Source: Synechococcales cyanobacterium PMM_0073 (GTDB taxonomy: Bacteria; Cyanobacteriota; Cyanobacteriia; Elainellales; Elainellaceae). Taken from it: a DNA stretch of 14,433 nucleotides. Shown piece by piece: positions 1 to 14,433 of the stretch. The first letter of the stretch is position 1. Every line of letters starts with the position of its first letter. Made by a program: the position numbers and the translations under genes. The stretch lies in contig CASBQH010000011.1 in assembly GCA_949127695.1 (NCBI GenBank), positions 1-14,433 on the forward strand, written 5' to 3'. The notes beneath the pieces were generated by a model, which saw only the letters and a list, made by a program, of their open reading frames with translations, did no database searches and had not been told where the DNA came from.

Positions 1-1
1 G

Positions 2-1492
2 CTGGGCTGGACGCCAGCTGAGATGATTGCCCGCCCTTGGGCAGAGTTTGTCCATCCTGACGACATCAGTGCCTCCAGCTCCGAAACAGACAGTTTGTTC
101 TTAGGTCGCCAAACTCTGAAGTTTGAGAATCGCTATCGGCATAAAGATGGCTCCTATCGCTGGCTGCTGTGGAATGCCCAGTCTTACCCGGACGAGCAGG
201 TGGTCTATGCAGCGGCAGTTGATATTACCGATCGCAAAACCGCTGAACTAGAGCGCGAACAGCTCTTGCAGCGTGAACAGTCTGCCCGCGCCGAAGCCGA
301 AGCCGCCAACCGGGTTAAAGACGAGTTTCTGGCGGTGCTGTCTCATGAGCTACGTTCGCCGCTTAACCCGATTTTAGGCTGGGCGCAGCTTTTGCAAACC
401 GGCAGACTCGACCCCGCCCGCCAAACCGAAGCCGTCAAAACGATTGAGCGCAACGCCAGACTGCAATCTCAGCTAATTGAAGATCTGCTCGATATTTCGC
501 GGATCATGCAGGGCAAACTCTCGCTGACGCCAGCGCCCGTGAGTTTGGCATTTGTGATTGCCGCCGCAGTCGAAACGGTGCATTTGGCAGCCGAGGCGAA
601 GCAGGTGCAGATCCGGCTAGAGCTGGCCGAGACTGCGCCAATATTTGGTGATGCCGCCCGCTTGCAGCAGGTGATCTGGAACCTGCTGACCAATGCCGTT
701 AAGTTTACCGCCAGCGGTGGCCAAGTCACGGTTGAGCTGAGGCAGCAGAATCAGCGGGCGCAAATTCGAGTGACTGATACGGGCAAGGGCATCCAGCCGC
801 AGTTCTTGCCCTATGTGTTTGAGTATTTTCGCCAAGAAGATGGCTCCACCACGCGCAAATTTGGCGGGCTGGGGCTGGGCTTGGCGATTGTGAAACAAAT
901 TGTCGAAATGCACGGCGGTACGGTGAGCGCCGAAAGCCCAGGCGAAAACCAGGGCACAAGCTTTACGGTCGAGCTGCCGATTTCACAGCAGGCGATGGCT
1001 GTCTGTGCGCCCACAAGTCCCAGTAGCCTAGATCCGAAGGCGCTCAGCAATCTGTCTATTCTGCTGGTGGATGACGATACCGACACCCGCGAGTTTCAAG
1101 CATTTTTGCTGGAGCAGAGTGGGGCAACGGTGGTTGCCGTTGCCTCTGGCATAGCAGCACTGCAAATATTAGATCACCTCAGCCTCAATCTGCTGGTGAG
1201 TGACTTGGGCATGGCCGAGATGGACGGCTATATGCTGATCCAGCAGATTCGGGCACGTCCCGCCGAGCAGGGCGGCAACATTCCGGCGATTGCGGTGACA
1301 GCCTACGCTGGAGAACTCGATCAAGAGAAGACCATTCGGGCAGGATTTCAGGCTTATCTAACCAAGCCCCTCCAGCCAGAAGTTTTAGTCAGAACCATTA
1401 CAGAACTGCTCAACGGGAGCCTGGAGACGAGCGCAACTCCCAAAGATCTATCTACAGCAGCTATGCCGCCGCCCCAATTGCCCCTATCGTAA
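2..1492 (+). CDS. Hybrid sensor histidine kinase, PAS-HisKA-HATPase-REC (5' end outside window)
   Basis: The reading frame is open to the first bases of the window, where it already encodes LGWTPAE, the front of a PAS fold. The ATG at 23 is therefore internal and the gene starts upstream. Residue numbers here count from that ATG. A PAS/PAC module spans about 1-72 (HPDD; NRYRHKDGSYRWLLW; DITDRK), followed by a short probable coiled coil (72-98). HisKA has the phospho-accepting His108 in LSHELRSPL. The ATPase domain shows the N box (N220, N224), DTGKGI (252-257) and the glycine-rich GGLGLGLAIV (281-290). A C-terminal receiver domain has acidic D350-D352, phospho-acceptor D394, T426 and K448. 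There is no DNA-binding output domain, so the signal is probably relayed to a separate partner by phosphotransfer. No response regulator gene is in the window. No membrane segment is visible in the part seen. The signal sensed is unknown. Confidence 0.95.
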   Translation: MGWTPAEMIARPWAEFVHPDDISASSSETDSLFLGRQTLKFENRYRHKDGSYRWLLWNAQSYPDEQVVYAAAVDITDRKTAELEREQLLQREQSARAEAEAANRVKDEFLAVLSHELRSPLNPILGWAQLLQTGRLDPARQTEAVKTIERNARLQSQLIEDLLDISRIMQGKLSLTPAPVSLAFVIAAAVETVHLAAEAKQVQIRLELAETAPIFGDAARLQQVIWNLLTNAVKFTASGGQVTVELRQQNQRAQIRVTDTGKGIQPQFLPYVFEYFRQEDGSTTRKFGGLGLGLAIVKQIVEMHGGTVSAESPGENQGTSFTVELPISQQAMAVCAPTSPSSLDPKALSNLSILLVDDDTDTREFQAFLLEQSGATVVAVASGIAALQILDHLSLNLLVSDLGMAEMDGYMLIQQIRARPAEQGGNIPAIAVTAYAGELDQEKTIRAGFQAYLTKPLQPEVLVRTITELLNGSLETSATPKDLSTAAMPPPQLPLS

Positions 1493-1520
1493 AGCCAGCT
1501 CTTTTACCAAACGCTCAGCC

Positions 1521-2177
1521 ATGCCGCCTCATTCTGCTCGCAACCGCCCGACTCGATCATCTAATCCGCAGCGTGCTGCCCATCGTAGTCTAGTCATACC
1601 CACGGCTCCCTTGCCCGACCCCATTGGCGAAACCATTGACGCTATTATTGCGATTCGCGCCAAAGCTGAGCAGAAAGTCTCGCCGCATCAGCGCTGGGTA
1701 GAATGGGTGAGCGAATTCTTTGGCCGACCCAGCTTTCTCTATGCGGCGGTGGCGGTAATTGCCTTCTGGCTCGTTCTCAACGCCCTGCCCGCCAGCTGGG
1801 GCATCCCGCAGTTTGACCCCTCGCCCTATGAAGGACTGGATAAAACGCTGGGCATTGTCTCCCTCCTCATGACCGCCATCGTCCTCGTGCGCCAGAGTCG
1901 GCAAGAGATGCTGGCCGAGCAGCGTGCCCAGCTCAATCTTCAGCTCGATTTACTCACCGAACAAAAAATCGCCAAGCTAATCGCCCTATTAGAAGAACTG
2001 CGCTGCGATCTGCCCAACGTGCCAAACCGCTATGATGCAGAGGCCGAAGCAATGCAGCAGGCAGTTGATCCAGCTACGGTTTTAGATACATTAGAAAATA
2101 CGCTAAACGAACAGCTAGCAGAAATTCAGAATCAGTCTAATTCGACCAGCTCAGAATCTAGCGAGGATTTGCAATAG
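1521..2177 (+). CDS. DUF1003 family membrane protein
   Basis: This 218-residue protein matches the DUF1003 pattern: an amphipathic start (SPHQRWVEWVSEFFGRPSF, about 54-72), a first membrane helix (about 72-90), a short polar loop with FDPSPYEGLD (98-107), and a second helix (about 107-124). It ends in a charged, probably coiled region, RQSRQEMLAEQRAQLNLQLD (124-143), and an acidic Ser/Glu-rich tail. The first 30 or so residues are basic and Pro/Arg-rich and look disordered, so a later start cannot be excluded. The family's function is unknown; it is an inner-membrane protein with a long cytoplasmic C-terminal part. It starts 28 bases after the kinase gene in the same direction and may be co-transcribed with it. 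I see no strong ribosome-binding site. Confidence 0.85.
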   Translation: MPPHSARNRPTRSSNPQRAAHRSLVIPTAPLPDPIGETIDAIIAIRAKAEQKVSPHQRWVEWVSEFFGRPSFLYAAVAVIAFWLVLNALPASWGIPQFDPSPYEGLDKTLGIVSLLMTAIVLVRQSRQEMLAEQRAQLNLQLDLLTEQKIAKLIALLEELRCDLPNVPNRYDAEAEAMQQAVDPATVLDTLENTLNEQLAEIQNQSNSTSSESSEDLQ

Positions 2178-2210
2178 TTCTTAATCTTTTAGCAGTTTAG
2201 CGCTCAGGCT

Positions 2211-2228
2211 CTCTGTCTAAGGATAGAG
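2211..2228 (+). other. Small hairpin after the DUF1003 gene
   Basis: CTCTGTC (2211-2217) pairs with GATAGAG (2222-2228) across a TAAG loop, with one G-U pair. CTCAG (2203-2207) and CTGAG (2239-2243) could extend it as an outer stem. No run of T follows, so it is not a convincing intrinsic terminator. It may help 3' end formation of the upstream transcript. Confidence 0.25.
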
Positions 2229-2283
2229 AATACTGGCTCTGAGTCACCTTGTAATCTACCTGCCGAGTGATAGCCGTTTAAAA

Positions 2284-2354
2284 ATAGCTCAGCTATATTC
2301 AGTTCAGTCGCAGCAACAGCATAGACTGAATCCTAGCATCTCAGCTGATCAGCT
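2284..2354. promoter_or_regulatory. AGCT-rich palindromes in the amylase leader (candidate operators)
   Basis: ATAGCT-C-AGCTAT (2284-2296) is a perfect palindrome around one central base. AGCTGATCAGCT (2343-2354) is a perfect 12-base palindrome. The heptamer CAGCTAT occurs in both places (2290-2296 and 2350-2356), 60 bases apart. A further 7-base stem, TTCAGTC/GACTGAA (2303-2309 and 2324-2330), lies between them. The symmetry and repetition suggest binding sites for a dimeric regulator of the amylase gene. No clear -35/-10 pair was found here. The regulator is unknown. Confidence 0.35.
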
Positions 2355-2394
2355 ATGACTCCTGACAGCTACTGTATTGTCCATTCAAATTACC

Positions 2395-2400
2395 AAGGGG
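2395..2400 (+). promoter_or_regulatory. Ribosome-binding site fixing the amylase start
   Basis: AAGGGG lies 9 bases before the ATG at 2410. This favours that ATG over an in-frame TTG at 2377, which would add 11 residues with no family similarity. Confidence 0.7.
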
Positions 2401-2409
2401 TTACTAGGT

Positions 2410-3900
2410 ATGTCACAAGATAAAGGGGCGATGATGCAGTACTTTCACTGGTACATCCAACCGGATGGCCAGCTGTGGAACCGCGTCAAAGATAAAGCTC
2501 AGAAGCTAGCCGAGGCGGGCTTCACGGCCATGTGGCTGCCTCCTGCTTATAAGGGCGTTGGCGGCGGCATGGATGTAGGCTACGGTGTATATGATATGTA
2601 TGACTTGGGTGAATTTGATCAGAAGGGATCAGTTCGCACTAAGTATGGCACTAAAGACGAGTATGTTACAGCGGTTAAAACGCTGGGAGAATTTGGGATT
2701 CGCACCTATGCCGACGTGGTGTTTAATCATCGGCTGGGTGGTGACGAAGCTGAAAAGGTGAAGGCGACGCCCTACCCGCGTGATAATCGGACTGAGCCGA
2801 AAGGCGAGATGTATGAAATTGAAGCCTATACGTCGTTCACGTTTCCGGGTCGCCAGGGCAAGTATTCTGAGTTCAAATGGCACTGGCATCATTTTAACGC
2901 CGTAGACTACGACGCTAACAACACAGACGACCACTCAACTATCTATGTGTTTGAAGGCAAAAAGTTTGAAGACTACGTGGCGCTGGAGTTTGGCAACTTT
3001 GACTATTTAATGGGCTGCGATATCGAATTCGACAACGAAGCGGTTCGCAAAGAGCTATCCGACTGGGGTAAATGGTACATTGACACGACTGGGATAGACG
3101 GCTATCGGATCGATGCCGCGAAGCATATCCCGGCCTGGTATTTCCCAGACTGGCTGGATGAAATGAGCGAATATTCTGGCCGCGAGAAGTTTGCAGTGGC
3201 CGAATATTGGGATACAGATCTCGCCGCTCTCCATGCCTATATCGAAAACAGCCGGGGGCGAGTGGCGCTGTTTGATGTGCCGCTGCACTACAATTTCAGT
3301 AACGCCAGCAATCAGAGCGAAAACTACGACATGCGGCAAATCTTTGACAACACGCTGGCTAAAGAGCAGCCGACGCTGGCTGTCACCTTTGTGGCCAACC
3401 ATGACTCACAAGCGCTGCAAGACCTGGAATCGGTGGTTGAACCCTGGTTTAAGCCAATTGCCTATGCCCTGATTTTGCTGCGTCAGGAAGGCTATCCCTG
3501 CGTATTCTATCCTGACTATTACGGGACAGAATATACGGATACCGGCAGTGACGGCAATGAACATACTGTCGTGATGCCTTCGCATGGCTGGTTAATTGAC
3601 AAGTTCCTCTACGCCCGCAAGCATTTTACCTATGGCGCACAGTACGACTACTTTGACCATGCCAACACTATCGGCTGGACTTGCTTGGGCGACGAAGATC
3701 ATCCCGGCGCAATGGCAGTGATCCTCACCAACGGAGCCGATGGCAGCAAGTCGATGGAAGTGGGCAAGCCAAACACCCAGTTTGTCGATCTGACTAAGCA
3801 TATTACCGAGCCAGTCACCACTGACGAAAACGGCTGGGGCGAATTCCGCTGCAACGGCGGCTCGGTCTCGGTCTGGGTTGAAGCCGATCACCTCGGCTAA
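2410..3900 (+). CDS. Cytoplasmic alpha-amylase, GH13 (bacterial AmyA type)
   Basis: The protein has 496 residues and no signal peptide, so it probably acts in the cytoplasm on alpha-1,4-glucans such as glycogen breakdown products. It opens with the family's typical MMQYFHWYIQPDGQLW. The four GH13 motifs are present: region I DVVFNH (102-107), region II GYRIDAAKH with nucleophile Asp235, region III AVAEYW with acid/base Glu265, and region IV FVANHDSQ with Asp332. The barrel is followed by a C-terminal beta domain ending VSVWVEADHLG. Length fits the subfamily of B. licheniformis amylase and E. coli AmyA. In region IV, Ala replaces the Asp or Glu often seen before NHD; the catalytic residues are intact. 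The gene follows a 232-base non-coding leader and lies 108 bases before shc on the same strand. Confidence in family is high; the exact substrate is inferred. Confidence 0.93.
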   Translation: MSQDKGAMMQYFHWYIQPDGQLWNRVKDKAQKLAEAGFTAMWLPPAYKGVGGGMDVGYGVYDMYDLGEFDQKGSVRTKYGTKDEYVTAVKTLGEFGIRTYADVVFNHRLGGDEAEKVKATPYPRDNRTEPKGEMYEIEAYTSFTFPGRQGKYSEFKWHWHHFNAVDYDANNTDDHSTIYVFEGKKFEDYVALEFGNFDYLMGCDIEFDNEAVRKELSDWGKWYIDTTGIDGYRIDAAKHIPAWYFPDWLDEMSEYSGREKFAVAEYWDTDLAALHAYIENSRGRVALFDVPLHYNFSNASNQSENYDMRQIFDNTLAKEQPTLAVTFVANHDSQALQDLESVVEPWFKPIAYALILLRQEGYPCVFYPDYYGTEYTDTGSDGNEHTVVMPSHGWLIDKFLYARKHFTYGAQYDYFDHANTIGWTCLGDEDHPGAMAVILTNGADGSKSMEVGKPNTQFVDLTKHITEPVTTDENGWGEFRCNGGSVSVWVEADHLG

Positions 3901-3913
3901 TTCTGCCTCATCC

Positions 3914-4005
3914 GGCGCTAGCCGCTTGCCAAGCCTGATCATTCAGCGCACAATGCTAAAGCTGCAATCTTGCGGCTGCTATATCTAAGCCAAGCGGCTA
4001 GCGCC
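3914..4005. repeat. Perfect 15-base inverted repeat flanking the shc leader
   Basis: The left arm GGCGCTAGCCGCTTG (3914-3928) and right arm CAAGCGGCTAGCGCC (3991-4005) are exact reverse complements separated by 62 bases. Each arm contains the palindrome GCTAGC. The right arm ends three bases before the shc ATG at 4009, and the left arm starts 14 bases after the amylase stop. In RNA the arms could form a GC-rich long-range stem over the shc translation start; in DNA they could be paired protein-binding sites. Confidence 0.6.
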
Positions 4006-4008
4006 ATC

Positions 4009-5904
4009 ATGCAAACAGACTATCAGGCCATCCCAAACCAAGCTGAGCTGGAGCAAGCCATCCAGCTCAGCCAGCAGTATCTGCTCTCGCTCCAGCATGC
4101 TGATGGCTACTGGTGGGGCAACCTAGAGTCTAACGTCAGCATTACCGCCGAGGTAGTGCTGCTGCACAAAATTTGGGGCACAGATCAGACGCGGCCAATG
4201 GCCAAAATGGCGGCCTATCTCCAGTCGCAGCAGCGCTCTCACGGTGGCTGGGAGCTGTTTTACCATGACGGCGGCGAGCTGAGCACCTCGGTTGAAGCCT
4301 ATATGGCGCTGCGGCTGCTGGGCATTCCGGCTGGCGATCCTGATATGCAGCGAGCGCGGGCGTTTATTCTGGCCAAGGGCGGCGTCAGCAAAACTCGGAT
4401 CTTTACCAAGTTCCACCTAGCGCTAATTGGCTGCTATGACTGGCGCGGCATTCCCAGCATTCCGGCTGGAGTTATGCTGCTGCCCGACTGGTTTCCGGTC
4501 AATGTTTATGAAATGTCGAGCTGGGCGCGGGGCAGTACCGTGCCGCTGCTGATTGTATTTGACCGCCAGCCCGTTTACGTGACGGCTCCGGCAATCCGCC
4601 TAGACGAACTCTATGTGGGCGATGTTGCCCCAGCTGAGCTGCCCCGCAGCGGCGACTGGCGCGATCTGTTTGTGGAGCTAGACGGCTGGCTAAAGCGGAT
4701 TGCCGACTGGAACCTGACGCCGCTGCGCGCCGAGGGACTGCGCGCCGCCGAACGTTGGATCCTCGAACGTCAGGAAGATACGGGCGACTGGGGCGGAATC
4801 ATCCCGGCTATGCTAAATTCAATGCTGGCGCTGCGTGCCTTAGACTACAGCGTAAATGATCCAGTAATCGTCAGAGGGCTAGCTGCAATTAATCAATTTG
4901 GCGTTGAAACCCAAACTGAATACTGGACGCAGCCCTGTGTTTCGCCCGTCTGGGATACGGCTTTGGTAATGCGCTCGCTCACTGATTCTGGACTGAGTGC
5001 CGACCATCCAGCTCTCAAGCAAGCCGCCGACTGGCTGCTGCAAAAGCAGATTCTCAGCTATGGCGACTGGGCGGTTAAAAACAAGACTGGCCGACCGGGT
5101 GGCTGGGCGTTTGAGTTTGAGAATCAGTTCTACCCTGATGTGGACGATACGGCGGTTGTTGTGATGGCACTACAGACGGTGCAGCGCAGCCAGCCCCAGC
5201 AAATTGCAATTGAGCGGGCGCTGCATTGGATTGCTTCCATGCAGTGCAGCGAGGGTGGCTGGGCAGCTTTTGATCTGGATAACAATCAAGACTGGCTGAA
5301 TGCCATGCCCTATGGCGACTTGAAGGCCATGATCGATCCCAACACCGCAGATGTGACGGCGCGAGTGCTGGAGATGGTGGGGCGAGTTGGCCAAACCCCT
5401 GCCTTTTCCAGAGCCGCCTTAGACCGGGCGCTGAGCTATCTGCGTCAGCAGCAGGAGCCAGAAGGCTGCTGGTTTGGGCGCTGGGGCGTCAACTATATTT
5501 ACGGCACGAGCGGCGTGCTGGTGGCGCTGGCGCTGCTGGCTCCCCAAACTTACTGTGACTGCATTGAGCGCGGGGCGGCTTGGCTGACAGGCTGCCAAAA
5601 CGCTGACGGCGGCTGGGGCGAAACCTGCCAGAGCTACGTTGAGCCGCAGCTTAAGGGGCAAGGCTCCAGCACGCCGTCCCAGACTGCCTGGGCGCTGCTG
5701 GGGCTGATGGCGGCGGGTCAATTTGAGCAGGCAACCGAGCAGGGGATTGCCTATTTGCTCAAGCGCCAAAATCCCGACGGCAGCTGGGGTGAGCCAGAGT
5801 TTACCGGCACGGGCTTTCCGGGGCATTTTTACCTAAACTACCAGCTCTACCGCCAGCATTTTCCGCTAACGGCATTGGGACGCTATCGCGGCTCAAAAGC
5901 ATGA
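4009..5904 (+). CDS. shc: Squalene-hopene cyclase
   Basis: The enzyme cyclises squalene to the pentacyclic hopanoid hopene (and hopanol) at the membrane, the committed step of hopanoid synthesis. From the ATG at 4009 it has 631 residues, the usual family size. An in-frame TTG at 3970 would add 13 residues without family similarity. The catalytic acid motif DVDDTA is at 377-382. QW-type repeats are spread along the protein: QQRSHGGW near 75-81, QEDTGDWGG near 255-263, CSEGGW near 413-418, QQEPEGCWF near 482-489, QNADGGWG near 530-537 and QNPDGSWG near 587-594. The start LLSLQHADGYWWGNLESN is also typical. No strong ribosome-binding site precedes the start, which is abutted by a 15-base inverted repeat. 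The 3' end overlaps the rhodanese gene on the other strand by 22 bases. No other hopanoid gene is in the window. Confidence 0.96.
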   Translation: MQTDYQAIPNQAELEQAIQLSQQYLLSLQHADGYWWGNLESNVSITAEVVLLHKIWGTDQTRPMAKMAAYLQSQQRSHGGWELFYHDGGELSTSVEAYMALRLLGIPAGDPDMQRARAFILAKGGVSKTRIFTKFHLALIGCYDWRGIPSIPAGVMLLPDWFPVNVYEMSSWARGSTVPLLIVFDRQPVYVTAPAIRLDELYVGDVAPAELPRSGDWRDLFVELDGWLKRIADWNLTPLRAEGLRAAERWILERQEDTGDWGGIIPAMLNSMLALRALDYSVNDPVIVRGLAAINQFGVETQTEYWTQPCVSPVWDTALVMRSLTDSGLSADHPALKQAADWLLQKQILSYGDWAVKNKTGRPGGWAFEFENQFYPDVDDTAVVVMALQTVQRSQPQQIAIERALHWIASMQCSEGGWAAFDLDNNQDWLNAMPYGDLKAMIDPNTADVTARVLEMVGRVGQTPAFSRAALDRALSYLRQQQEPEGCWFGRWGVNYIYGTSGVLVALALLAPQTYCDCIERGAAWLTGCQNADGGWGETCQSYVEPQLKGQGSSTPSQTAWALLGLMAAGQFEQATEQGIAYLLKRQNPDGSWGEPEFTGTGFPGHFYLNYQLYRQHFPLTALGRYRGSKA

Positions 5905-6329
5905 AGCTCAGAATGCAGCAGTTTGCCCCAGAGCAAACTATAGGGATGCACCTGCGACACGGCGCGCCCGTCCCGGTAGACCGGATAGCCTGCGTTTGCC
6001 CACTCAAAAATCGAGCCTTCTAGGTTGAAGGCTTTGATGCCTTGATCTTGCAGGGCTGCTGCTGCTCTAGCCGACCGGTAGCCCACGGAGCAATAGAGCA
6101 CAATAGGCTGCTGCCTCTTGGCCAGCTCGCCCAAGTCATCGGGCAGCAGCGCTGCTGTAGGCAGGTGGCTCACCTGATATTCTGCTGGCTTACGTGCATC
6201 TAGCAGATGCGGCGGGTGAGGCTGCTGGAGCCAGAGCGCCAATTCTGGGGGCGTCAGCTGCGGCACCTGCGGAAACTGTAGCCGAATCAGCTGTTTGACC
6301 GCCGCCCAGCTCAGATGTTCAAGCTCCAT
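5883..6329 (-). CDS. Single-domain rhodanese-like protein
   Basis: The protein has 148 residues with one rhodanese fold over about 23-120: HLLDARKPAEYQVSHLPTA (41-59), then the active-site loop YCSVGYRSAR with catalytic Cys80, then FNLEGSIFEWANAGYPVY (101-118). The six-residue loop CSVGYR fits a sulfur-carrying (thiosulfate or persulfide) rhodanese rather than a Cdc25-type phosphatase, which has a longer loop. No signal peptide or membrane helix is seen, so it is probably cytoplasmic. The C-terminal 30 residues are an extension outside the core. The gene converges on shc and overlaps its last 22 bases; it diverges from the PsiE-family gene with 175 bases between their starts. Its sulfur acceptor cannot be told from sequence. 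Confidence 0.9.
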   Translation of the reverse strand: MELEHLSWAAVKQLIRLQFPQVPQLTPPELALWLQQPHPPHLLDARKPAEYQVSHLPTAALLPDDLGELAKRQQPIVLYCSVGYRSARAAAALQDQGIKAFNLEGSIFEWANAGYPVYRDGRAVSQVHPYSLLWGKLLHSELHAFEPR

Positions 6330-6465
6330 TGAATTTGCTTATCGTCAGGATTGGATCTGCTGTGAGTCAAGAGCGGCAATTCAAACAGCTTTGGGGTTGC
6401 CGATTGTACCCTTCAAGCATAGGATTTCAGCTATGGTTGCCTTCTGTTTCATCGTACGCAATCAA

Positions 6466-6471
6466 TATAAC
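6466..6471 (+). promoter_or_regulatory. Candidate -10 element before the PsiE-family gene
   Basis: TATAAC lies 34 bases before the ATG at 6505 in the 175-base divergent gap with the rhodanese gene. No good -35 hexamer sits at the right distance. No tandem CTTAACCT-type Pho box was seen, so phosphate control is not supported by this leader. Confidence 0.25.
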
Positions 6472-6504
6472 GGCCTGAGCGTCATTCATTCACCCGGTTA
6501 AATT

Positions 6505-6978
6505 ATGCATCCTCCTAGGGAAAAGTTGAGCCGCAGGCTGGCTAAAGCAGTCAGAGATGAGAATTTTTTGACTGTGGCGCATTGGCTAGAAAATCTGGCC
6601 GCTAAAGTGCTGATTTTGTCCTTGAGCCTAGTAATTTTAATTTCCCTGATTGATCTGGTCGTTCTGCTGGGTAGAGATCTGCTGTTGAGTCCAACCGGAT
6701 TCTTTGCCAAAACGCTAATTGATATTTTTGGTCTATTCCTAAATATTCTAATTGCGCTAGAGCTACTGGAAAATATTACAGCTTATCTGAAAAAGCATAT
6801 TGTCCAGGTTGAGCTAGTAATTGTTACTTCGCTGATTGCCGTAGCGCGCAAGATTATTATTTTTGACTTTACGAAATATAGCAATCTGGATCTGCTGGCA
6901 TTGGGGGTAGCTATTTTTGCCCTGTCGCTCAGCTATTTGCTAATCAAATTGACAAATCGCAAATTAGATCAAGATTAG
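6505..6978 (+). CDS. PsiE-family (phosphate-starvation-inducible E-like) membrane protein
   Basis: The protein has 157 residues with four predicted membrane helices at about 33-56, 68-90, 98-120 and 128-148, and a charged N-terminal cytoplasmic stretch. The section LIALELLENITAYLKKHIVQ (82-101), followed by VELVIVTSLIAVARKIIIFD (102-121), carries the conserved acidic and basic residues typical of PsiE-like proteins. The molecular function of the family is unknown; the name comes from phosphate-starvation induction in E. coli. The gene stands alone: divergent from the rhodanese gene and 207 bases before the Rieske oxygenase gene. Its base composition is somewhat AT-richer than its neighbours. 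The family call rests on pattern recall. Confidence 0.75.
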   Translation: MHPPREKLSRRLAKAVRDENFLTVAHWLENLAAKVLILSLSLVILISLIDLVVLLGRDLLLSPTGFFAKTLIDIFGLFLNILIALELLENITAYLKKHIVQVELVIVTSLIAVARKIIIFDFTKYSNLDLLALGVAIFALSLSYLLIKLTNRKLDQD

Positions 6979-7055
6979 AGGCTCTAGAAAATACACGTCC
7001 CGTTATTCAGCAACGCCTAATTTTGTTCAAGCGATTTCTGTTATTTTCTGTAGTT

Positions 7056-7083
7056 TTGTATTGTATATTCATCGGGATAGAAT
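7056..7083 (+). promoter_or_regulatory. Candidate sigma70-type promoter for the Rieske-guaD operon
   Basis: TTGTAT (7056-7061), a 16-base spacer and TAGAAT (7078-7083) resemble a -35/-10 pair in an AT-rich gap. Transcription would begin near 7090, giving a leader of about 95 bases before the ATG at 7186. Prediction by eye only. Confidence 0.35.
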
Positions 7084-7185
7084 CAGCGTTGGCAATAGTT
7101 GCTGTTATTTTGAATACAAAAAAGAGTTTAGGCTGCCCTATAGTTGATCGAGGCAACAGTCGATTCTTTGAACTAATCTATCCAA

Positions 7186-8226
7186 ATGGCCATTACCACC
7201 GCAACGCTTCCCCGCAACTGTACGTTCAATCAGCCGGATTGGGAAATACTGGCGACTTTCTGGTATCCCGTTGCTTTCTCGCATGAGGTTGTAGACCAGC
7301 CCTATGCCGCCCAATTGCTAGATGAGCGCCTCGTGCTGTTTCGGCTCTCGGATGGGTCAGTTACGGCGGCTCGCGATCTCTGCCTGCACCGGGGCGTGCC
7401 GCTGAGCCTAGGCTGGCTGAAAAACGACGAGCTGATCTGTCGCTATCACGGCGTTCGCTATAACAAAGCGGGGCAGTGCATTTGCATTCCGGCTGAGCCT
7501 GAAGCGGCAATTCCAGGGCGGCTGAAGCTGAAAACCTATGCAGTCACCGAGCGATATGGCTTGGTTTGGGTGCGGCTGAGTGACAGTCGTGACGGCGGCG
7601 AGGTGCATTTTCCAGAGTTTAATGAATGGGATGATCCCGACTACCTGCAAGTATTGCCCAACTCAGTCGAGATTGACGCCGCATCTGGACGGCAGATTGA
7701 AGGCTTTTTAGATGTCAGCCATTTTGCCTTCATTCACGTTGATTCGTTTGGAGAGCAGCAGAATCCAGAAGTGCCAGACTACCCGATTGAGCTGTTACCG
7801 CACGGGTTTCGCGCCGACTACATCAGCACGGTGAGCAACTATCCGCACCATATGAAGCACCTGAATCCGCCCGGATTTAAGTGGCGACGGCTGTTTGAAA
7901 TGTCGCTGCCCTTTACCGCCAAGCTGTCGGTCACGTTTCCCAATGGCCAGCTGCATATTTTGAATGCGGCCTGTCCGATTTCGGCGCGCAAAACTCGCCT
8001 GTTTGTACCAATCTGCCGCAACTTTGACAAAGACGCGCCGTTGCAGGATACGCTAGATTTTAATGACCAGGTGTTTGCCGAAGATAAGGCGATTGTGGAA
8101 GAGCAGTATCCCGAAGATCTGCCGCTGCGGCTGCAAGATGAAGTGCATATTGCGGGCGATAAAAGCTCAATCACCTATCGCAAGCAGCTGGCCGCGCTGG
8201 GGTTGAGCCGTTCATTTACGGCTTAG
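7186..8226 (+). CDS. Rieske non-heme iron oxygenase, alpha subunit (NdmA/HpxD-like; possible purine substrate)
   Basis: The 346-residue protein has an N-terminal Rieske [2Fe-2S] domain with Cys66-X-His68 and Cys85-X2-His88 (CLHRG...CRYHG). A catalytic domain follows with the mononuclear iron motif FLDVSHFAFIH, giving His179 and His184 and the bridging Asp176. Asp294 in FNDQVFAEDK is a likely third ligand. The length and the C-terminal pattern (VFAEDKAIVEEQ; DKSSITYRK) resemble, from memory, the methylxanthine N-demethylases NdmA/NdmB. Such enzymes insert oxygen using electrons from a reductase; no reductase gene is here, so ferredoxin is a plausible donor. The start is firm because an in-frame stop TAA lies at 7174-7176. 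The gene is 26 bases before guaD on the same strand, which points to a purine-related role: demethylation, or ring hydroxylation as in HpxD. The family is secure; the substrate is inference. Confidence 0.92.
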   Translation: MAITTATLPRNCTFNQPDWEILATFWYPVAFSHEVVDQPYAAQLLDERLVLFRLSDGSVTAARDLCLHRGVPLSLGWLKNDELICRYHGVRYNKAGQCICIPAEPEAAIPGRLKLKTYAVTERYGLVWVRLSDSRDGGEVHFPEFNEWDDPDYLQVLPNSVEIDAASGRQIEGFLDVSHFAFIHVDSFGEQQNPEVPDYPIELLPHGFRADYISTVSNYPHHMKHLNPPGFKWRRLFEMSLPFTAKLSVTFPNGQLHILNAACPISARKTRLFVPICRNFDKDAPLQDTLDFNDQVFAEDKAIVEEQYPEDLPLRLQDEVHIAGDKSSITYRKQLAALGLSRSFTA

Positions 8227-8252
8227 TTAATCTCTTAGAACATATACTTCAG

Positions 8253-9587
8253 ATGACTCTCAAAGCATTTCGCAGCGCCATCCTAGATTTTGTTGACGAT
8301 CCGTTCTATCGATCTGAGCTGGAGAGCGTCCGCTATATTCCAGATGGACTGCTGGTTCTGGAGCAGGGCAAAGTCAAAGATCTGGGCAGCTATCAGCAGC
8401 TGGCGGCAAAATATGCCGGAGTTGCCACCAAGTCCTACCCCAATCACCTGCTGCTGCCGGGATTCATCGATCTGCATTTGCATTTTCCCCAGACTGAAAT
8501 TATTGCTGCCTATGGCGAACAGCTGCTGGAATGGCTGGAAAAATACGTGTTCCCCACCGAGCGTAAGTTTGCCGATAAAGCCTACTGCGAGCAAGTTGCG
8601 CCCATTTTTATTGACGAGCTGCTGCGGAATGGTACGACCACAGCCGTGGTATTGGCGGCTGTATTTCCAGAGTCTGTCGAGGCGCTGTTTACAGAATGCC
8701 AGCGCCGCAATCTGCGGATGATTGCGGGCAAAGTGATGATGGATCGAAACGCGCCCGACTTTCTCTCGGATACCGCCGAGTCGTCTTACCGCGACAGCAA
8801 AGCCTTAATTCAAAAGTGGCATCACCAAGATCGCCTGCTCTATGCCGTCACGCCGCGCTTTGCTCCCACTTCAACCCCTGCCCAGCTCGCTATCGCCCAG
8901 CAGCTCTTAAAAGAGTTTCCAGATACCTATCTGCATACGCATCTCTCTGAAAATATGAAGGAAGTGGCCTGGGTGCAGGAACTCTTTCCAGATAGCCAGG
9001 GATATTTAGATGTCTACGATCAGTATGGCCTAGTGGGAGAGCGCTCGATTTTTGCACACTGCGTTCAGCTCACCGAATCTGAGTTTAGCCGCTTGGCGGA
9101 GGCTCAGTCGGCAATCGCCTTTTGCCCCACTTCCAATACGTTTCTGGGCAGCGGACTCTTCAACCTAGAACGCGCCACGGCTCCCCAGTCACCGATTAAG
9201 CTTGGACTGGCCACAGACGTGGGCGGCGGCACCAGCTTTTCCATGCTGCAAACTGCGAGTGAAGCTTACAAAGTCACCCAGCTGCGACATCAAAATCTTT
9301 CGCCGTTTCAGGCGCTGTTTTTAGCAACGCTGGGGGGAGCCAGAGCGCTACAGCTCGACGATAAAATCGGCAATTTTGACTTGGGAAAAGAGGCCGATTT
9401 TGTCTTGTTAGATCCGCGCTCCACCCCCATTATGGCGCTGCGAAACCAGCAGGCGCTGCCCGATGATCTAGAAGCGCTCAGCGATCCACTGTTTAGCCTG
9501 ATGATGATGGGCGATGATCGAGCCGTGCGAGCCACCTATATTATGGGCGAATTGGCCTATGACCGAGAGGCGGGATTAGGCATCTAG
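8253..9587 (+). CDS. guaD: Guanine deaminase
   Basis: The enzyme hydrolyses guanine to xanthine and ammonia in the cytoplasm. It has 444 residues, usual for this amidohydrolase family. Metal-binding motif PGFIDLHLHFPQTE gives His75 and His77. THLSEN gives His230 and Glu233, FAHC gives His269, and LATDVGGGTSFS gives Asp322. CPTSNTFLGSGLF (291-303) is a hallmark of guanine deaminases compared with other amidohydrolases such as chlorohydrolases. A C-terminal composite beta domain (KIGNFDLGKEADFVLLDP) is intact. The gene probably forms an operon with the Rieske oxygenase 26 bases upstream. Its last 12 bases overlap the end of the convergent DppC-like permease gene. Purine nitrogen recovery is the likely role; xanthine-using enzymes are not in the window. 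Confidence 0.95.
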   Translation: MTLKAFRSAILDFVDDPFYRSELESVRYIPDGLLVLEQGKVKDLGSYQQLAAKYAGVATKSYPNHLLLPGFIDLHLHFPQTEIIAAYGEQLLEWLEKYVFPTERKFADKAYCEQVAPIFIDELLRNGTTTAVVLAAVFPESVEALFTECQRRNLRMIAGKVMMDRNAPDFLSDTAESSYRDSKALIQKWHHQDRLLYAVTPRFAPTSTPAQLAIAQQLLKEFPDTYLHTHLSENMKEVAWVQELFPDSQGYLDVYDQYGLVGERSIFAHCVQLTESEFSRLAEAQSAIAFCPTSNTFLGSGLFNLERATAPQSPIKLGLATDVGGGTSFSMLQTASEAYKVTQLRHQNLSPFQALFLATLGGARALQLDDKIGNFDLGKEADFVLLDPRSTPIMALRNQQALPDDLEALSDPLFSLMMMGDDRAVRATYIMGELAYDREAGLGI

Positions 9588-10463
9588 GCCAGCCCGTGGA
9601 TCAAGGCTATCTCGCAGCCCGTCGCCCAGCAGGTTAAAGGCCAGCACAATCAGCGTAATCATCAGTCCCGGCATCAAGATAGTCCAGGGCGCGGAGAGCG
9701 CATAGCCGTTGGTGAATGAATCTGAGAGCATCGTCCCCAGCTCTGGCGTCGGCGGCTTTGCCCCCAGCCCCAAAAAGCCCAGCCCAGCCGCCTCCAGCGT
9801 CGCCGTGCCAATCGAGAGCGTCGCCTGCACAATCAGCGGAGCCAGACTCGACGGCAGGATATGCCGAAAGATAATCCGCCCCGACTTTGCTCCAAAGGCG
9901 CGCACCGTTTGGACAAAGCCCTGCTCCCGCAGCGACAGCACCATGCTGCGAGTCAGGCGGGTAAAAATCGGAATCTGCACCACGCCCACAGCCAGCATGA
10001 CGCTTTGCAAACTCGGCCCCACCACCGTCGCCACCGCAATTGCCAGCAAAATTGACGGGAAGGCCAGCAAAATATCCGTGATCCAGCCAATGATCCGCTC
10101 CAGCCAGCCCCGGTAATAACCCGCCACCAGCCCTAGCCCCGTGCCAATCGCCAGCCCCAGCGTCACTGAGAGCAGGCTGATCAGCAGCGAAATCCGAGTG
10201 CCATACCAAACCAGCGTCAGTAAATCGCGCCCCAGTCCGTCTGTGCCCAGCCAGTGCTTGGCGCTGGGCGGACTCAGCCGCGCCGTGAAGTCGCGAGCCG
10301 TGGACGGGTCAAAGGGTCGCAAGACCGGAGCCAGCAAGGCCAGCAGGATAATCCCGACGGTCAGCCCTAGCCCGACGCGAGCTGAGATTGACTTGAGGAA
10401 GCGCTGAGTGGCTTTACGCAGCGAAGAGGGCTGTAGATCCGGCGGGGCTGTCAGAGATTCCAT
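9576..10463 (-). CDS. ABC importer permease, DppC/OppC type
   Basis: The protein has 295 residues: a cytoplasmic N-terminus, a first helix at about 32-48, then the family signature WLGTDGLGRDLLTLVWYGTR (71-90), followed by five further hydrophobic segments. The EAA loop that contacts the ATPase is at about 180-204 (EQGFVQTVRAFGAKSGRIIFRHILP region). The conserved LEAAGLGFLGLGAKPPTPELG (223-243) is typical of DppC/OppC. It pairs with the DppB-like permease 20 bases upstream to form the membrane channel for peptides, nickel, glutathione or similar solutes. It is the last gene of the minus-strand transporter operon. Its stop lies inside the end of guaD on the other strand. The exact substrate cannot be read from the permease. 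Confidence 0.92.
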   Translation of the reverse strand: MESLTAPPDLQPSSLRKATQRFLKSISARVGLGLTVGIILLALLAPVLRPFDPSTARDFTARLSPPSAKHWLGTDGLGRDLLTLVWYGTRISLLISLLSVTLGLAIGTGLGLVAGYYRGWLERIIGWITDILLAFPSILLAIAVATVVGPSLQSVMLAVGVVQIPIFTRLTRSMVLSLREQGFVQTVRAFGAKSGRIIFRHILPSSLAPLIVQATLSIGTATLEAAGLGFLGLGAKPPTPELGTMLSDSFTNGYALSAPWTILMPGLMITLIVLAFNLLGDGLRDSLDPRAGLDA

Positions 10464-10483
10464 GCGGTATATGTCAAGCGTAA

Positions 10484-11488
10484 TTATTTATACTGAATGC
10501 GCGGATCGAGAAACGAATAGGAGAGATCAACGAGTAAGTTGATGAGCACAAACACCAGCGCTACAAACACAACGCCACCCTGAACCACCGGATAGTCGCG
10601 GTTGAGAATGCCTTCATAGATCCAAGAGCCAATTCCTGGCCAGGAAAAGATCGTCTCAGTCAAAATAGCGCCGCTGAGCAAGGTGCCAAACTGTAGCCCA
10701 ATGATGGTCACCACGGGCAGCAGCGCGTTCTTCAGCGCATGTTGATTGATCACTAACCGTTCCTTTAGCCCTTTGGCTCTGGCCGTGCGAATATAGTCCT
10801 GCGACAGCACTTCTAGCATGGCGCTGCGGGTAATGCGGGCAATAATCGCTAGCGGAATGGTGCCTAGCGCCAGCGCGGGTAAAAGCAAATGCGCCAAGAT
10901 ATCGCCCAGCGCTCTGAAGTTAAACGTGATCAGCGCGTCTAGAATATAAAACCCGGTAATTGGCTGAAAGGGAATGCCCACCCCCAGCCGTCCGCTCGGC
11001 GGGAGCCACTGCAAGTTGACCGCAAACAAATAAACCAACAGCAGCCCCAGCCAGTAAACCGGCGTGGAGACACCCAGCAGAGAAGCGGTCATGGCCAGAT
11101 TGTCAATCCAGCCGTTCTTTTTGACGGCAGCCAGAATGCCAGCGGGTACGCCTACCACAATCGAAAACAGCATGGCTGCAATCGACAGCTCGAACGTAGC
11201 TGGCCAGCGAGCCGCAATTTCGCGAGTCACCGGAATGCCGCTAATAATGCTGCGCCCCAGATCAAACCGAATCAGTTTACCTAAGAACGAGAGATATTGC
11301 AGCGGCAGCGGGCGGTTGAGGCCGAGCTGTTCTTGCAGGTTGGCAACCTGCTCGGCGGTGGCGCGCGGCCCTAGCATCACCACCGCCGGGTTGCCAGGAA
11401 TCAGCTGTAGGAATAAAAAAACCAGTAGGGTAATGCCGAGCAGAACGGGCAGGATATCGAGCAGACGCTTGCCGATATATTTGAGCAT
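10484..11488 (-). CDS. ABC importer permease, DppB/OppB type
   Basis: From the ATG at 11488 the protein has 334 residues beginning MLKYIGKRLLDILPVLLGIT, the standard DppB start. An in-frame GTG at 11542 would add 18 residues that look unrelated, so I prefer the ATG, though neither has a clear ribosome-binding site. There is a first helix (about 9-30), then the periplasmic section with PGNPAVVMLGPRAT and LGLNRPLPLQYLSFLGKL, then five more helices. The EAA loop is at about 231-258 (DYIRTARAKGLKERLVINQH...). The ending FLDPRIQYK is typical. It acts with the DppC-like permease 20 bases downstream and the binding lipoprotein encoded 74 bases upstream. Confidence 0.93.
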   Translation of the reverse strand: MLKYIGKRLLDILPVLLGITLLVFLFLQLIPGNPAVVMLGPRATAEQVANLQEQLGLNRPLPLQYLSFLGKLIRFDLGRSIISGIPVTREIAARWPATFELSIAAMLFSIVVGVPAGILAAVKKNGWIDNLAMTASLLGVSTPVYWLGLLLVYLFAVNLQWLPPSGRLGVGIPFQPITGFYILDALITFNFRALGDILAHLLLPALALGTIPLAIIARITRSAMLEVLSQDYIRTARAKGLKERLVINQHALKNALLPVVTIIGLQFGTLLSGAILTETIFSWPGIGSWIYEGILNRDYPVVQGGVVFVALVFVLINLLVDLSYSFLDPRIQYK

Positions 11489-11562
11489 AGATTTTGAGGA
11501 GATGAAAGATCTGGGCTTGAGTTCTCCAGCAGCAGGGCGCACACCAGAGAACTCTGAGCAAA

Positions 11563-13230
11563 TTACTGCTTCGTAATGGCCTCAAACGACTCATTGGCAA
11601 ACGGGCTTGGCTGCCAGCCCGCTAGATTTGCCCGCTGCGCCAAGAGCGGCTCTGAATGCACGATTGGAATTCGCACTGTTTCATCAAAGACAATCTTTTC
11701 GACCTGCGAATACATCTGCTCCCGCTTGGCTACATCTGACTCTTTGCGGGCAGCTTCAAGCAGCTTAAACACCTCAGGGTTTTGCCAGTCGCCAATATCC
11801 TTGGTGCCGCCGGGGCCAAAGTGGTAGTAGAGGAAGTTGTCAGGATCGCCATAGTCGCCCGTCCAGCCCAGCATAAACGCCTGATAGCCCGGTTTTTTCA
11901 GCCGATCGTCCAGGTATGCCGCCCAGTCTTTGGTGTTTAGCTTAACGTTAATGCCGACTGCGCCCAGATCAGCCGCAAAGGCTTCGGCAATTGGCTTCGG
12001 CGTGGGGAAATAGGGGCGCGAAACTGGCATGTACCACAGCTCTAGATCAAAGCCGTTGGGGTAGCCCGCATCCGCCAGCATTTTCTTCGCTTTCTCTGGG
12101 TTAAACTCGTAGTCGGCCTGACTGGCATCTTGGAATTGCTTCAGCGAAGGCGGCATAAAGAAGCTATCGCTGGTGGCTAGCCCTGACCAGAACGCATCGA
12201 CAATCGCCTTGCGGTTGAGCGACATAGCAATCGCCTGCCGCACTTCTTTTTTGGCCAGCGGCTCGTAGCTGGTGTTCAGCGCCAGGTAGCCGACATTAAA
12301 CGGCGGGCGGCGGACTTCTTTCAGGTTGCTGTCGCTTTTTAGCTCATTCAGCTGATCGGGGGCAATATCAATTGTGAAGTCGATTGTGCCTGAGCGCAGT
12401 TCGGCTAATCTGGCCGAAGGCTCTTTGATGAATCGAAACACTACCTGATCGGTTTTGGGCAGATCAGGTTTCCAGTAGTTCGGGTTCTTTTCGAGCGTAA
12501 TCCGGTCGCCTGTTCGCCATTCCACAAACTTATAAGGCCCCGTTCCGACTGCGGTTGATCCAGCTGTACCATATTCAGCCTTCGCCTTCTCAATTGCGGT
12601 TGGGCTAGCAATGCCAAAATAGCCGGAGGCAATGGCGGCTGGGAAGGCTGCAAATGGCTCTTTCAGCTTGAATTCAACGGTGGTTGGATCGACCACGTTC
12701 ACGGCCTGCACGGTCGAATTTGGGCTGCCTTTAAAGCCGCCAAACAGCCCTTCCCAGATCGCATAGTCTTTGCCAGCGTCGCGGAAGCCCAGCGGACTTT
12801 TCGGATCCCACCAGCGCTCGACGTTGACCTTGACGGCTTCGGCATTGAAGTCTGTGCCATCGTGGAACTTGACGCCCTCGCGCAGCTTAAATGTCCAGGT
12901 GAGACCGTCGTCTGAGGCGTTCCATTCCGTGGCCAGCGCCGGTTCAAGTTCAGTGCCACCCGGCTTATAGTCCAGCAATCGATCATAGATCTGCTGCTGC
13001 ACATAGATCGAGTTGCTGTCTTCAATATTGCCCGATTCTAAATTAGCCGGATCGCCCGCTGAGCCAAAGATCAGCGTTGAAGCGTTGGCGACCGGAGCTG
13101 CTTCTGGAGATGCCGCCGGAGATGTACCTGCGGTGGGAGTAGTCTGCTGGGCGCAGTTGGTCAGCGTGATGGTGAGCGCCGCTGTGAGCGCAAAGAGCAG
13201 AGTTTGCCAGCGTTTTAAGGGTAAAAACAT
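11563..13230 (-). CDS. ABC importer substrate-binding lipoprotein, family 5 (DppA/OppA type)
   Basis: From the ATG at 13230 the protein has 555 residues. A basic-hydrophobic signal (FLPLKRWQTLLFALTAALTITLTNC) ends at Cys26, a probable lipidation site, although the -1 residue is Asn, not the usual Gly/Ala/Ser. A Thr/Pro/Ala-rich linker (27-50) follows. Family-5 signatures are clear: LATEWNASDDGLTWTFKLREG then VKFHDGTDFNAEAV (about 99-133), AVGTGPYKFVEW, LNRKAIVDAFW, and the late GWTGDYGDPDNFLYYHF, which is closest to the DppA/GsiB subgroup. Starting at an upstream in-frame codon (13329) would add 33 residues before the signal peptide and is unlikely; CAGGA lies about 11 bases before the chosen ATG. 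The protein probably captures the solute in the periplasm for the two permeases encoded downstream. Peptides are the default substrate; its place next to guaD leaves other ligands open. Confidence 0.93.
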   Translation of the reverse strand: MFLPLKRWQTLLFALTAALTITLTNCAQQTTPTAGTSPAASPEAAPVANASTLIFGSAGDPANLESGNIEDSNSIYVQQQIYDRLLDYKPGGTELEPALATEWNASDDGLTWTFKLREGVKFHDGTDFNAEAVKVNVERWWDPKSPLGFRDAGKDYAIWEGLFGGFKGSPNSTVQAVNVVDPTTVEFKLKEPFAAFPAAIASGYFGIASPTAIEKAKAEYGTAGSTAVGTGPYKFVEWRTGDRITLEKNPNYWKPDLPKTDQVVFRFIKEPSARLAELRSGTIDFTIDIAPDQLNELKSDSNLKEVRRPPFNVGYLALNTSYEPLAKKEVRQAIAMSLNRKAIVDAFWSGLATSDSFFMPPSLKQFQDASQADYEFNPEKAKKMLADAGYPNGFDLELWYMPVSRPYFPTPKPIAEAFAADLGAVGINVKLNTKDWAAYLDDRLKKPGYQAFMLGWTGDYGDPDNFLYYHFGPGGTKDIGDWQNPEVFKLLEAARKESDVAKREQMYSQVEKIVFDETVRIPIVHSEPLLAQRANLAGWQPSPFANESFEAITKQ

Positions 13231-13292
13231 GATTGAGAGTATCCTGTAAATCTGAAGAGAATGGCCGCTTGAGCTATAGCGCTGCGAGAGGA

Positions 13293-13321
13293 TATTTAAC
13301 TCTAATATTAAGTACCTACAA
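13293..13321 (-). promoter_or_regulatory. Candidate promoter for the binding-protein/permease operon
   Basis: On the minus strand TTGTAG (13321-13316), a 17-base spacer and TAAATA (13298-13293) resemble a sigma70 promoter. The transcript would start near 13286, about 55 bases before the ATG at 13230. Found by eye. Confidence 0.35.
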
Positions 13322-13490
13322 ACTCGCATTTTCTGAGTTCACAAACTGTATCAAAAGATCGGATTCTAACAATATTTATCTAGTATCTATCTGTCATCCA
13401 TCTCAGGACATAGATTTTTGGATAGGCGACCAGGCTAGACTGATTGCTAAACTACCTGTATGATTTAATACTTTTCCAGATGCGTTAGCC

Positions 13491-13520
13491 TTGCATACTA
13501 GACCAAACCTAAACTATATA
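13491..13520 (+). promoter_or_regulatory. Candidate promoter for the ATPase gene
   Basis: TTGCAT (13491-13496), an 18-base spacer and TATATA (13515-13520) resemble a -35/-10 pair. The expected start point, near 13527, falls inside the tandem 15-base repeat, so a protein bound to that repeat would block it. Confidence 0.35.
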
Positions 13521-13550
13521 TTGCTTAACATTACGATTGCTTAACATTAC
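13520..13550 (+). repeat. Tandem direct repeat, two perfect 15-base copies (candidate operator)
   Basis: ATTGCTTAACATTAC occurs at 13520-13534 and again at 13536-13550, a period of 16 bases, ending 20 bases before the ATPase ATG. A weaker third copy, ATTGCTAAACTACC, lies at 13443-13456. The position at a candidate -10 and start point suggests a regulator site. A chance local duplication is the main alternative. Confidence 0.6.
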
Positions 13551-13570
13551 CAGTATTTTCCACGCCGCTC

Positions 13571-14433
13571 ATGACAACTCCCGTTTTGGCCATTCAGCAT
13601 CTCTGCGTTGACTTCCGCCAAGAGCGGCAGCTGGTTCATGCCGTGCAGGATATTTCGTTTGAAATTATGCCGGGTGAAACCCTCTGCGTCGTGGGCGAAT
13701 CGGGATCTGGCAAGTCAGTGACCGCACTGGCGACGATGGGGCTGCTCGCTCCCTCTGCCCAAGTGCGGGGCGAAATCTGGTTTGCCAATCCCGATTTGGA
13801 AGCAGCGCCAGTGGATTTGCTGGCGCTGCAAGCTGATCAGCGCCGCCAGTATCGGGGTGGCCAAATTGCGATGATCTTTCAAGAGCCAATGACCTCGCTC
13901 AATCCCGTCTATACCTGCGGACATCAGGTGAAAGAGGCGATCCGGCTCCATGCCGAAATCGACCCAGAAGATGCCCAGCAGCGAGCGATTGAGCTGTTTC
14001 GAGAGGTGAAGCTGCCTGACCCAGAAACAATGCTTGATCGCTATCCGCACCAGCTTTCAGGAGGGCAAATTCAGCGGGTGATGATTGCCATGGCGCTGAG
14101 CGGCAACCCGGCGCTGCTGATTGCCGACGAACCCACCACCGCCCTAGATGTCACCATTCAGGCCACAATTTTGGAGCTGATGCGCGAAATTCGCGACCGT
14201 CGCCGCATGTCAATTTTGTTTATTACGCATGATATGGGCGTGGTCTCAGAAATTGCCGATCGCGTTGTGGTGATGTTTCGCGGCAGGGTGGTGGAAATCG
14301 CCGATGTCTACAGCCTGTTTGCCACACCCCGCCATCCCTACACCCAAGGCTTACTCAACTGTCGCCCCCGCCCTGACCAAAACCGCCAGCGCCTGCCCAC
14401 GGTTTCTGACTTTATGCAGGTGATCACGCTGCC
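13571..14433 (+). CDS. ABC importer ATP-binding protein, DppD/OppD type, probably the first half of a two-ATPase fusion (3' end outside window)
   Basis: The open frame runs from the ATG at 13571 to the window end, 287 complete residues. One full nucleotide-binding domain is present: Walker A GESGSGKS (42-49), Q-loop Gln104 in FQEPMTSLNP, signature LSGGQ (162-166), Walker B LLIADEP (182-188) and H-loop His220. The oligopeptide-type HPYTQGLL (255-262) follows. Instead of the usual Cys-containing DppD tail, the chain continues as NCRPRPDQNRQRLPTVSDFM (263-282), which resembles the linker in fused tandem-ATPase versions such as GsiA-like proteins, so a second ATPase domain may follow beyond the window. 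It is divergent from the binding-protein gene and should energise the importer formed by the minus-strand genes. No ribosome-binding site is evident. Confidence 0.93.
   Translation, partial: MTTPVLAIQHLCVDFRQERQLVHAVQDISFEIMPGETLCVVGESGSGKSVTALATMGLLAPSAQVRGEIWFANPDLEAAPVDLLALQADQRRQYRGGQIAMIFQEPMTSLNPVYTCGHQVKEAIRLHAEIDPEDAQQRAIELFREVKLPDPETMLDRYPHQLSGGQIQRVMIAMALSGNPALLIADEPTTALDVTIQATILELMREIRDRRRMSILFITHDMGVVSEIADRVVVMFRGRVVEIADVYSLFATPRHPYTQGLLNCRPRPDQNRQRLPTVSDFMQVITL

Follow-up and report, generated by a model that had tools for sequence, protein, structure and literature searches.

An HpxD-type Rieske oxygenase gene beside guanine deaminase in a cyanobacterium points to a possible molybdenum cofactor-independent route from guanine to urate

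The closest described counterparts of the gene considered here are hpxD of Klebsiella and the genes for the demethylases NdmA and NdmB. PMC7373994 has Klebsiella hpxDE involved in the oxidation of hypoxanthine to xanthine and of xanthine to uric acid, and PMC9240774 names Klebsiella hpxDE and stresses hypoxanthine as a nitrogen source. The gene in question encodes a Rieske oxygenase and directly precedes guaD, a guanine deaminase gene, in a 14,433-nucleotide stretch of the draft genome (77.75% complete) of the Synechococcales cyanobacterium PMM_0073 (contig CASBQH010000011.1, positions 1 to 14,433), referred to below as the window. In literature searches, with subscription papers outside their scope, no described cyanobacterial example of a purine-linked Rieske enzyme was found, in line with the original prediction made from the DNA, which knew of no characterised one, and the name HpxD was met in one paper, PMC7373994, in which the word cyanobacteria is absent.

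We propose, with a probability of roughly 0.75, that the Rieske enzyme and GuaD carry out successive steps in the breakdown of guanine. GuaD would produce xanthine by deaminating guanine; as an oxygenase of the HpxD type, the Rieske enzyme would then hydroxylate this xanthine at C8 to give urate, using O2 and two electrons and no molybdenum cofactor. The electrons would probably come from a general ferredoxin, as no gene for an HpxE-like reductase was found with it. In most of the relatives searched the urate would then be opened, and its nitrogen recovered, by HpxO, UraH and UraD in the cyanobacteria or by a cofactor-free urate oxidase in Verrucomicrobiota and Acidobacteriota; the path beyond urate in the window's own organism we infer. 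The original prediction had placed the Rieske enzyme with GuaD in purine metabolism and had named HpxD among its precedents; the identity to HpxD, the neighbouring genes and the co-occurring genes all support this. The positions and the 26-base distance that it gave for the two reading frames, both on the + strand, were also as stated:

7186-8226, + strand: Rieske non-heme iron oxygenase of the HpxD type, 346 aa, assigned from its Rieske and VanA_C domains, its identity to HpxD and its metal-site residues
8227-8252, + strand: 26-base spacer between the Rieske and guaD reading frames
8253-9587, + strand: guaD, guanine deaminase, 444 aa, assigned from TIGR02967 and a structure match

The Rieske protein matches the Pfam Rieske and VanA_C domains and passes no cut-off among the NCBIfam models. 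In the 93 family rows of the alignment, that is all rows except NdmA, NdmB, two paralogues from the same genome and five distant plasmid proteins, Cys66, His68, Cys85, His88, Asp176, His179 and His184 are invariant. These are the seven residues that had been proposed as the metal sites, although we take Asp176, within D-x2-H-x4-H, to be the bridging aspartate, and the likely third ligand of the iron to be Asp300. The latter, in the motif FAED, is likewise invariant in all 93 rows and is also present in NdmA and NdmB.

Among annotated proteins, those named HpxD are the closest to it. Identity is 53.5% to that of Paraburkholderia (by tblastn against plasmid records), which is annotated as a ‘molybdenum cofactor-independent xanthine hydroxylase subunit’, 47.0% over 99% of the query to that of Klebsiella pneumoniae (NZ_CP091979.1, locus L120), to which RefSeq gives the name molybdenum cofactor-independent xanthine hydroxylase, and 46% to that of Erwinia; a relative in P. 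putida, whose gene is followed by hpxO, is 49% identical. In pairwise comparison NdmA and NdmB reach 37% and 31%. Six residues, Gly168, Gln170, Phe188, Trp233, Phe237 and Asn279, do not vary across the 93 family rows, the named HpxD proteins included, and are replaced in both NdmA and NdmB; a seventh, Phe280, is shared by 92 of the 93. In a tree of 102 rows the window protein falls within the 93-row group that holds four named HpxD rows, apart from NdmA and NdmB, with support of 92/91, and the same separation is seen in a 39-row tree (89/93). The tree that the original prediction had called for thus groups the protein with HpxD, although a topology in which the non-proteobacterial members were forced together with NdmA and NdmB was not rejected (p-AU 0.098 in the 39-row tree). 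With support for the separation only moderate, the tree agrees with an HpxD placement and does not settle it by itself.

A rival account, which takes up the methylpurine part of the original prediction, is an enzyme that removes N-methyl groups from methylxanthines or methylguanines and so feeds GuaD or xanthine oxidation. NdmA is the best match in a search of solved structures (E 3e-52, with NdmB fifth at 5e-37), which would account for that impression. Asn293 and Phe297 correspond to the Asn-Phe pair of the NdmA pocket, altered in the NdmA variant 6icp, and are kept in all 93 rows, so that a purine pocket is plausible. One homologue (P0011, among 120 of 1543 listed) has a UniRef name beginning ‘Methylxanthine’. 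Dehydrogenase genes of the formaldehyde-handling kind, a possible hint of demethylation there, are found at L117:10705-11817, some 1.7 kb downstream from the Acinetobacter relative, and, as fdhA, at L123:8069-9271, about 2 kb downstream of a more distant Rieske gene of Cupriavidus. The two dehydrogenases are not closely matched (best 37% over 92 residues and 27% over 368) in any of the 81 loci compared, which are the window and the best 80 of 349 relatives in the genome collection, from Cyanobacteriota, Acidobacteriota and Verrucomicrobiota. No reductase stands beside the gene in these loci, NdmD itself and demethylase neighbours not having been searched for, and the carriers are coupled to urate breakdown. 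With identities of 37% and 31% set against 47-54% to annotated HpxD, and residues 168, 170, 188, 233, 237 and 279 following HpxD, methylpurine demethylation was set aside and appears very unlikely. By its sequence, the protein is an HpxD-type oxygenase found outside Proteobacteria, with no HpxE found and with a gene that is sometimes joined to guaD.

The partner gene encodes a true guanine deaminase. Its product scores 583.9 bits against TIGR02967, a curated equivalog model of NCBIfam with a cut-off of 375.4, and its best match among solved structures is the guanine deaminase 6ohb (E 1e-159), so that the earlier guanine deaminase call holds. A guaD gene adjoins the Rieske gene in six of the 81 loci, namely the window and five of the 80 relatives (L007, L008, L064, L066 and L081, the last with guaD split into two reading frames). 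The neighbouring GuaD proteins of these relatives are at least 64% identical to that of the window. The adjacency recurs in two subclades that lie apart from each other, and with the genes in either order, so that the pairing is more than chance; conservation of the pair, one of the points on which the original prediction said it could fail, is real but patchy. In two further loci an 8-oxoguanine deaminase gene follows the Rieske gene after 7 and 32 bases (L061:9034-10389 and L078:9062-10435). Here both enzymes would yield urate, the deaminase from oxidised guanine.

Other neighbours belong to the steps around urate. Urate oxidase genes are found near the Rieske gene in L032, L033, L037 and L083, all from Verrucomicrobiota, and the L032 protein passes TIGR03383. 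In the cyanobacterial locus L045 the Rieske gene is accompanied by genes for a xanthine permease, HpxO, UraH, UraD and an allantoate amidohydrolase-type protein. L066 has, besides guaD, a nucleobase permease gene nearby. The family as a whole is in this way linked in the genome to urate catabolism through hpxO, uraH and uraD, the window's own partner being guaD. In 15 of the 81 loci one or more of the purine genes searched for are found within 2 kb (64 of the 81 have the full 2 kb on both sides, the other flanks being shorter; aminotransferase (AGT) matches were excluded from these counts). In L017 (Pseudanabaena frigida) xdhA, xdhB and an XdhC-type gene are just upstream of the HpxD-type gene (6339-7313), which puts both presumed types of xanthine-oxidising enzyme at a single locus.

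The gene is rare in the window's phylum, being present in eight of 386 sampled genomes, its own included. Genome-wide searches covered 50 carriers, comprising 49 of the 80 fetched relatives, for which completeness is not stated, and the window's own genome; L063 was left out, and the carriers overlap with the phylum sample, as judged from the shared coordinates of G185/G425, G193/G399 and G296/G427. UraD (OHCU decarboxylase) was found in 46 of the 50, the exceptions being the window's own draft, G390, G391 and G428. Across the phylum sample UraD is present in just 35 of 386 genomes, and with the window's own draft removed it occurs in six of seven carriers and in 29 of the remaining 378 genomes (p 2e-6 by Fisher's test, uncorrected for relatedness). 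FAD-dependent HpxO was sought in 39 genomes and scored above its cut-off in 33 (30 of the 34 cyanobacterial carriers and three of four added sample genomes), and HpxO, UraH and UraD are encoded in a row in several cyanobacteria (for example L097:3555-5651 and L114:6718-8899). In the window's own draft neither UraD nor HpxO was found. Cofactor-free urate oxidase is present in 15 of 49 carriers, these being all eight Verrucomicrobiota and all seven Acidobacteriota, and in none of the 34 cyanobacterial carriers. Urate oxidase PF01014 was also considered for the cyanobacterial step after urate and was rejected, since it occurs in none of the 386 sampled genomes and HpxO was found instead. The Rieske gene is thus retained across phyla that handle urate in different ways.

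Xanthine dehydrogenase (XDH, TIGR02965) scored above its cut-off in 23 of the 50 carriers, all of them cyanobacteria. No XDH match at E ≤ 0.001 was found in the other 11 of the 34 cyanobacterial carriers. Eight of these 11 have GuaD, HpxO and UraD. Four of the eight carry no metagenome-assembly label, and one of these four, the genome of L007, combines the Rieske-guaD pair with an HpxO-UraH-UraD gene run. In the eight, gene content makes the Rieske enzyme the evident candidate for producing urate. At the same threshold no XDH match was seen in six of the eight Verrucomicrobiota, all metagenome-assembled and so possibly with gaps, and strict replacement of XDH by the Rieske enzyme is possible in these six. 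All seven Acidobacteriota have XDH relatives that score below the cut-off and may or may not oxidise xanthine.

These data also bear on whether the enzyme would instead, or additionally, oxidise hypoxanthine to xanthine by hydroxylation at C2. Its product would then be the same as that of GuaD, a convergence on xanthine that the original prediction had suggested. This is the main rival, because of what the two papers cited above describe or stress: Klebsiella hpxDE in hypoxanthine oxidation too (PMC7373994), and hypoxanthine as a nitrogen source in PMC9240774, whose reference list includes the title of a primary paper on hypoxanthine assimilation. A hypoxanthine phosphoribosyltransferase gene also lies nearby in L066, and an adenosine deaminase-like gene is next door in L010 and L011, that of L010 scoring below its family cut-off. 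Against this, the recurrent partners (GuaD, 8-oxoguanine deaminase, xanthine permease, HpxO and urate oxidase) make or use xanthine or urate, RefSeq calls Klebsiella HpxD a xanthine hydroxylase, and the six Verrucomicrobiota with urate oxidase and UraD and with no XDH match would be expected to have another urate maker. Because the HpxO, UraH, UraD and urate oxidase that neighbour or co-occur with the gene use urate, convergence on xanthine is less likely than successive steps, and a role in hypoxanthine oxidation seems to us unlikely.

Several observations weigh against the proposed conversion of xanthine to urate, in addition to the NdmA pocket pair and the moderate tree support given above. 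XDH accompanies the Rieske gene in 23 of the 34 cyanobacterial carriers. In the window's own draft, too, xdhA is complete, and xdhB runs into a contig end; the Rieske gene is therefore not simply a replacement for XDH, and a strict model in which HpxD replaces XDH was rejected for the cyanobacteria. Among 23 UraD-bearing genomes of the window's class in the phylum sample, ten have neither XDH (E ≤ 1e-100) nor the Rieske gene; their urate may come from uptake or from a further enzyme. A near-complete, one-contig genome with a Rieske gene of 74% identity (G346) showed no UraD, no HpxO (E ≤ 1e-80) and no XDH (E ≤ 1e-100). The Acidobacteriota loci have a purine-type neighbour in L052 only, a xanthine permease-like gene that scores below its cut-off. 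Finally, none of the purine genes searched for is found within 2 kb in 66 of the 81 loci, as would be expected if the enzyme acted on a non-purine substrate and its adjacency to guaD were coincidental. VanA_C-type Rieske enzymes act on many substrates, and several of the neighbours are unrelated, with a cytosine deaminase gene among those in L013. Purine genes are nevertheless denser near the Rieske gene. Up to 2 kb away there are 20 in 303 kb, or 6.6 per 100 kb, and at 6-8 kb three in 229 kb, or 1.3 per 100 kb. The ratio of about five is biased upward, since some of the queries were picked from neighbours that had already come to light. Together with the strong co-occurrence with UraD, this density makes a non-purine substrate improbable, to much the same degree as demethylation.

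A reductase gene follows hpxD in most of the proteobacterial plasmid records that have gene tables. It is HpxE in Klebsiella, a PDR/VanB-type protein in Erwinia, Pantoea, Paracoccus and Komagataeibacter, a protein of similar kind that resembles NADH oxidoreductases in Rhizobium, and a rubredoxin with an FAD reductase in Paraburkholderia and Caballeronia; in the P. putida and Acinetobacter DUT-2 records no reductase follows the hpxD-like gene. Searches with HpxE, two PDR/VanB-type proteins, rubredoxin and rubredoxin reductase (E ≤ 1e-6) gave no match in any of the 81 loci, with flanks of up to 8 kb and some shorter. Genome-wide, HpxE had no match at E ≤ 1e-10 in 34 of the 50 carriers, and in the other 16 the best match (2.7e-24) lies in a 588-aa open frame, with no orthologue standing out. 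Since a dedicated HpxE gene was not found beside it, we class the protein as an HpxD-type oxygenase and not as part of an HpxDE system. For the same reason it would seem that the electrons probably come from a general ferredoxin, perhaps the photosynthetic ferredoxin in cyanobacteria.

No terminator-like hairpin was found in the spacer at 8227-8252, so that joint transcription of the Rieske gene and guaD is plausible. A scan of positions 6900-9900 for promoters and terminators gave no signal exceeding that of shuffled sequence. There is no NtcA-type site upstream of the Rieske gene, and the two matches elsewhere in the window are at chance level (38 of 200 shuffles); one of the two, an NtcA-like GTA-N8-TAC at 13458-13471, is roughly 130-230 bases upstream of the gene for the binding protein of an ABC transporter. 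No Rfam riboswitch match was obtained in the window, and in eight other loci the matches were to tRNA only. The transporter genes, of the peptide/nickel type, occupy 9576-13329 on the - strand and encode a substrate-binding protein and two permeases, an ATPase not being seen among the window's reading frames. They converge on guaD, and a permease frame and the guaD frame share their last 12 bases. Upstream, at 3970-5904, is a squalene-hopene cyclase gene (TIGR01507, 878.7 bits with a cut-off of 431.1) with no evident link to purine genes. Elsewhere in the cyanobacteria, plasmid pLBX of Leptolyngbya boryana carries another Rieske gene, 32% identical (L125:3989-4963), directly after the operon of a BMP-family ABC transporter. 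Its product could be another cyanobacterial Rieske enzyme with a link to purines or nucleosides.

A broader and more tentative view, which we hold at somewhat less than even odds, is that Cyanobacteria, Verrucomicrobiota and Acidobacteriota share a branch of HpxD that has no reductase of its own and is driven by general or photosynthetic ferredoxin, so that xanthine could be converted to urate in the light without molybdenum. Strains without XDH would then depend on it alone for xanthine hydroxylation, and those with both enzymes would keep it in reserve for times when molybdenum runs short and nitrate reductase and nitrogenase compete for the supply. If the proposed xanthine hydroxylation is real, proteins now named ‘aromatic ring-hydroxylating dioxygenase’, ‘vanillate O-demethylase’ or similar would gain a function in the recovery of purine nitrogen, urate-degrading genomes without xanthine dehydrogenase would gain their missing step, and the direct feeding of a purine hydroxylase by photosynthetic ferredoxin would become testable.

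Of the known systems, Klebsiella HpxDE is the nearest in kind. Its HpxD has the same Rieske and mononuclear iron residues and the same family-specific residues as the window protein, and the cluster uraH-uraD-NCS2 permease-hpxO-hpxR-hpxD-hpxE resembles the gene set of L045, in which an NCS2-type permease, hpxO, uraH and uraD are likewise neighbours. It differs in that the reductase gene hpxE and the LysR-type hpxR adjoin hpxD, whereas neither is beside the window gene, whose partner is guaD; the two also come from different bacterial phyla, and many hosts of the window family carry XDH as well. The HpxD-like proteins of Paraburkholderia and Caballeronia (L086 and L088), the former annotated as HpxD, are 54% identical to the window protein by tblastn and have a rubredoxin and an FAD-dependent oxidoreductase directly downstream, in the place that guaD takes in the window. 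NdmA and NdmB (6ick and 6icl) align over nearly their full length and have the same domains, and the Asn/Phe pair of NdmA is common to the window protein, but both differ from it at residues that are invariant across the HpxD family. XdhAB, finally, carries out the reaction proposed for the Rieske protein, xanthine to urate, and does so as an unrelated protein with molybdenum, FAD and 2Fe-2S.

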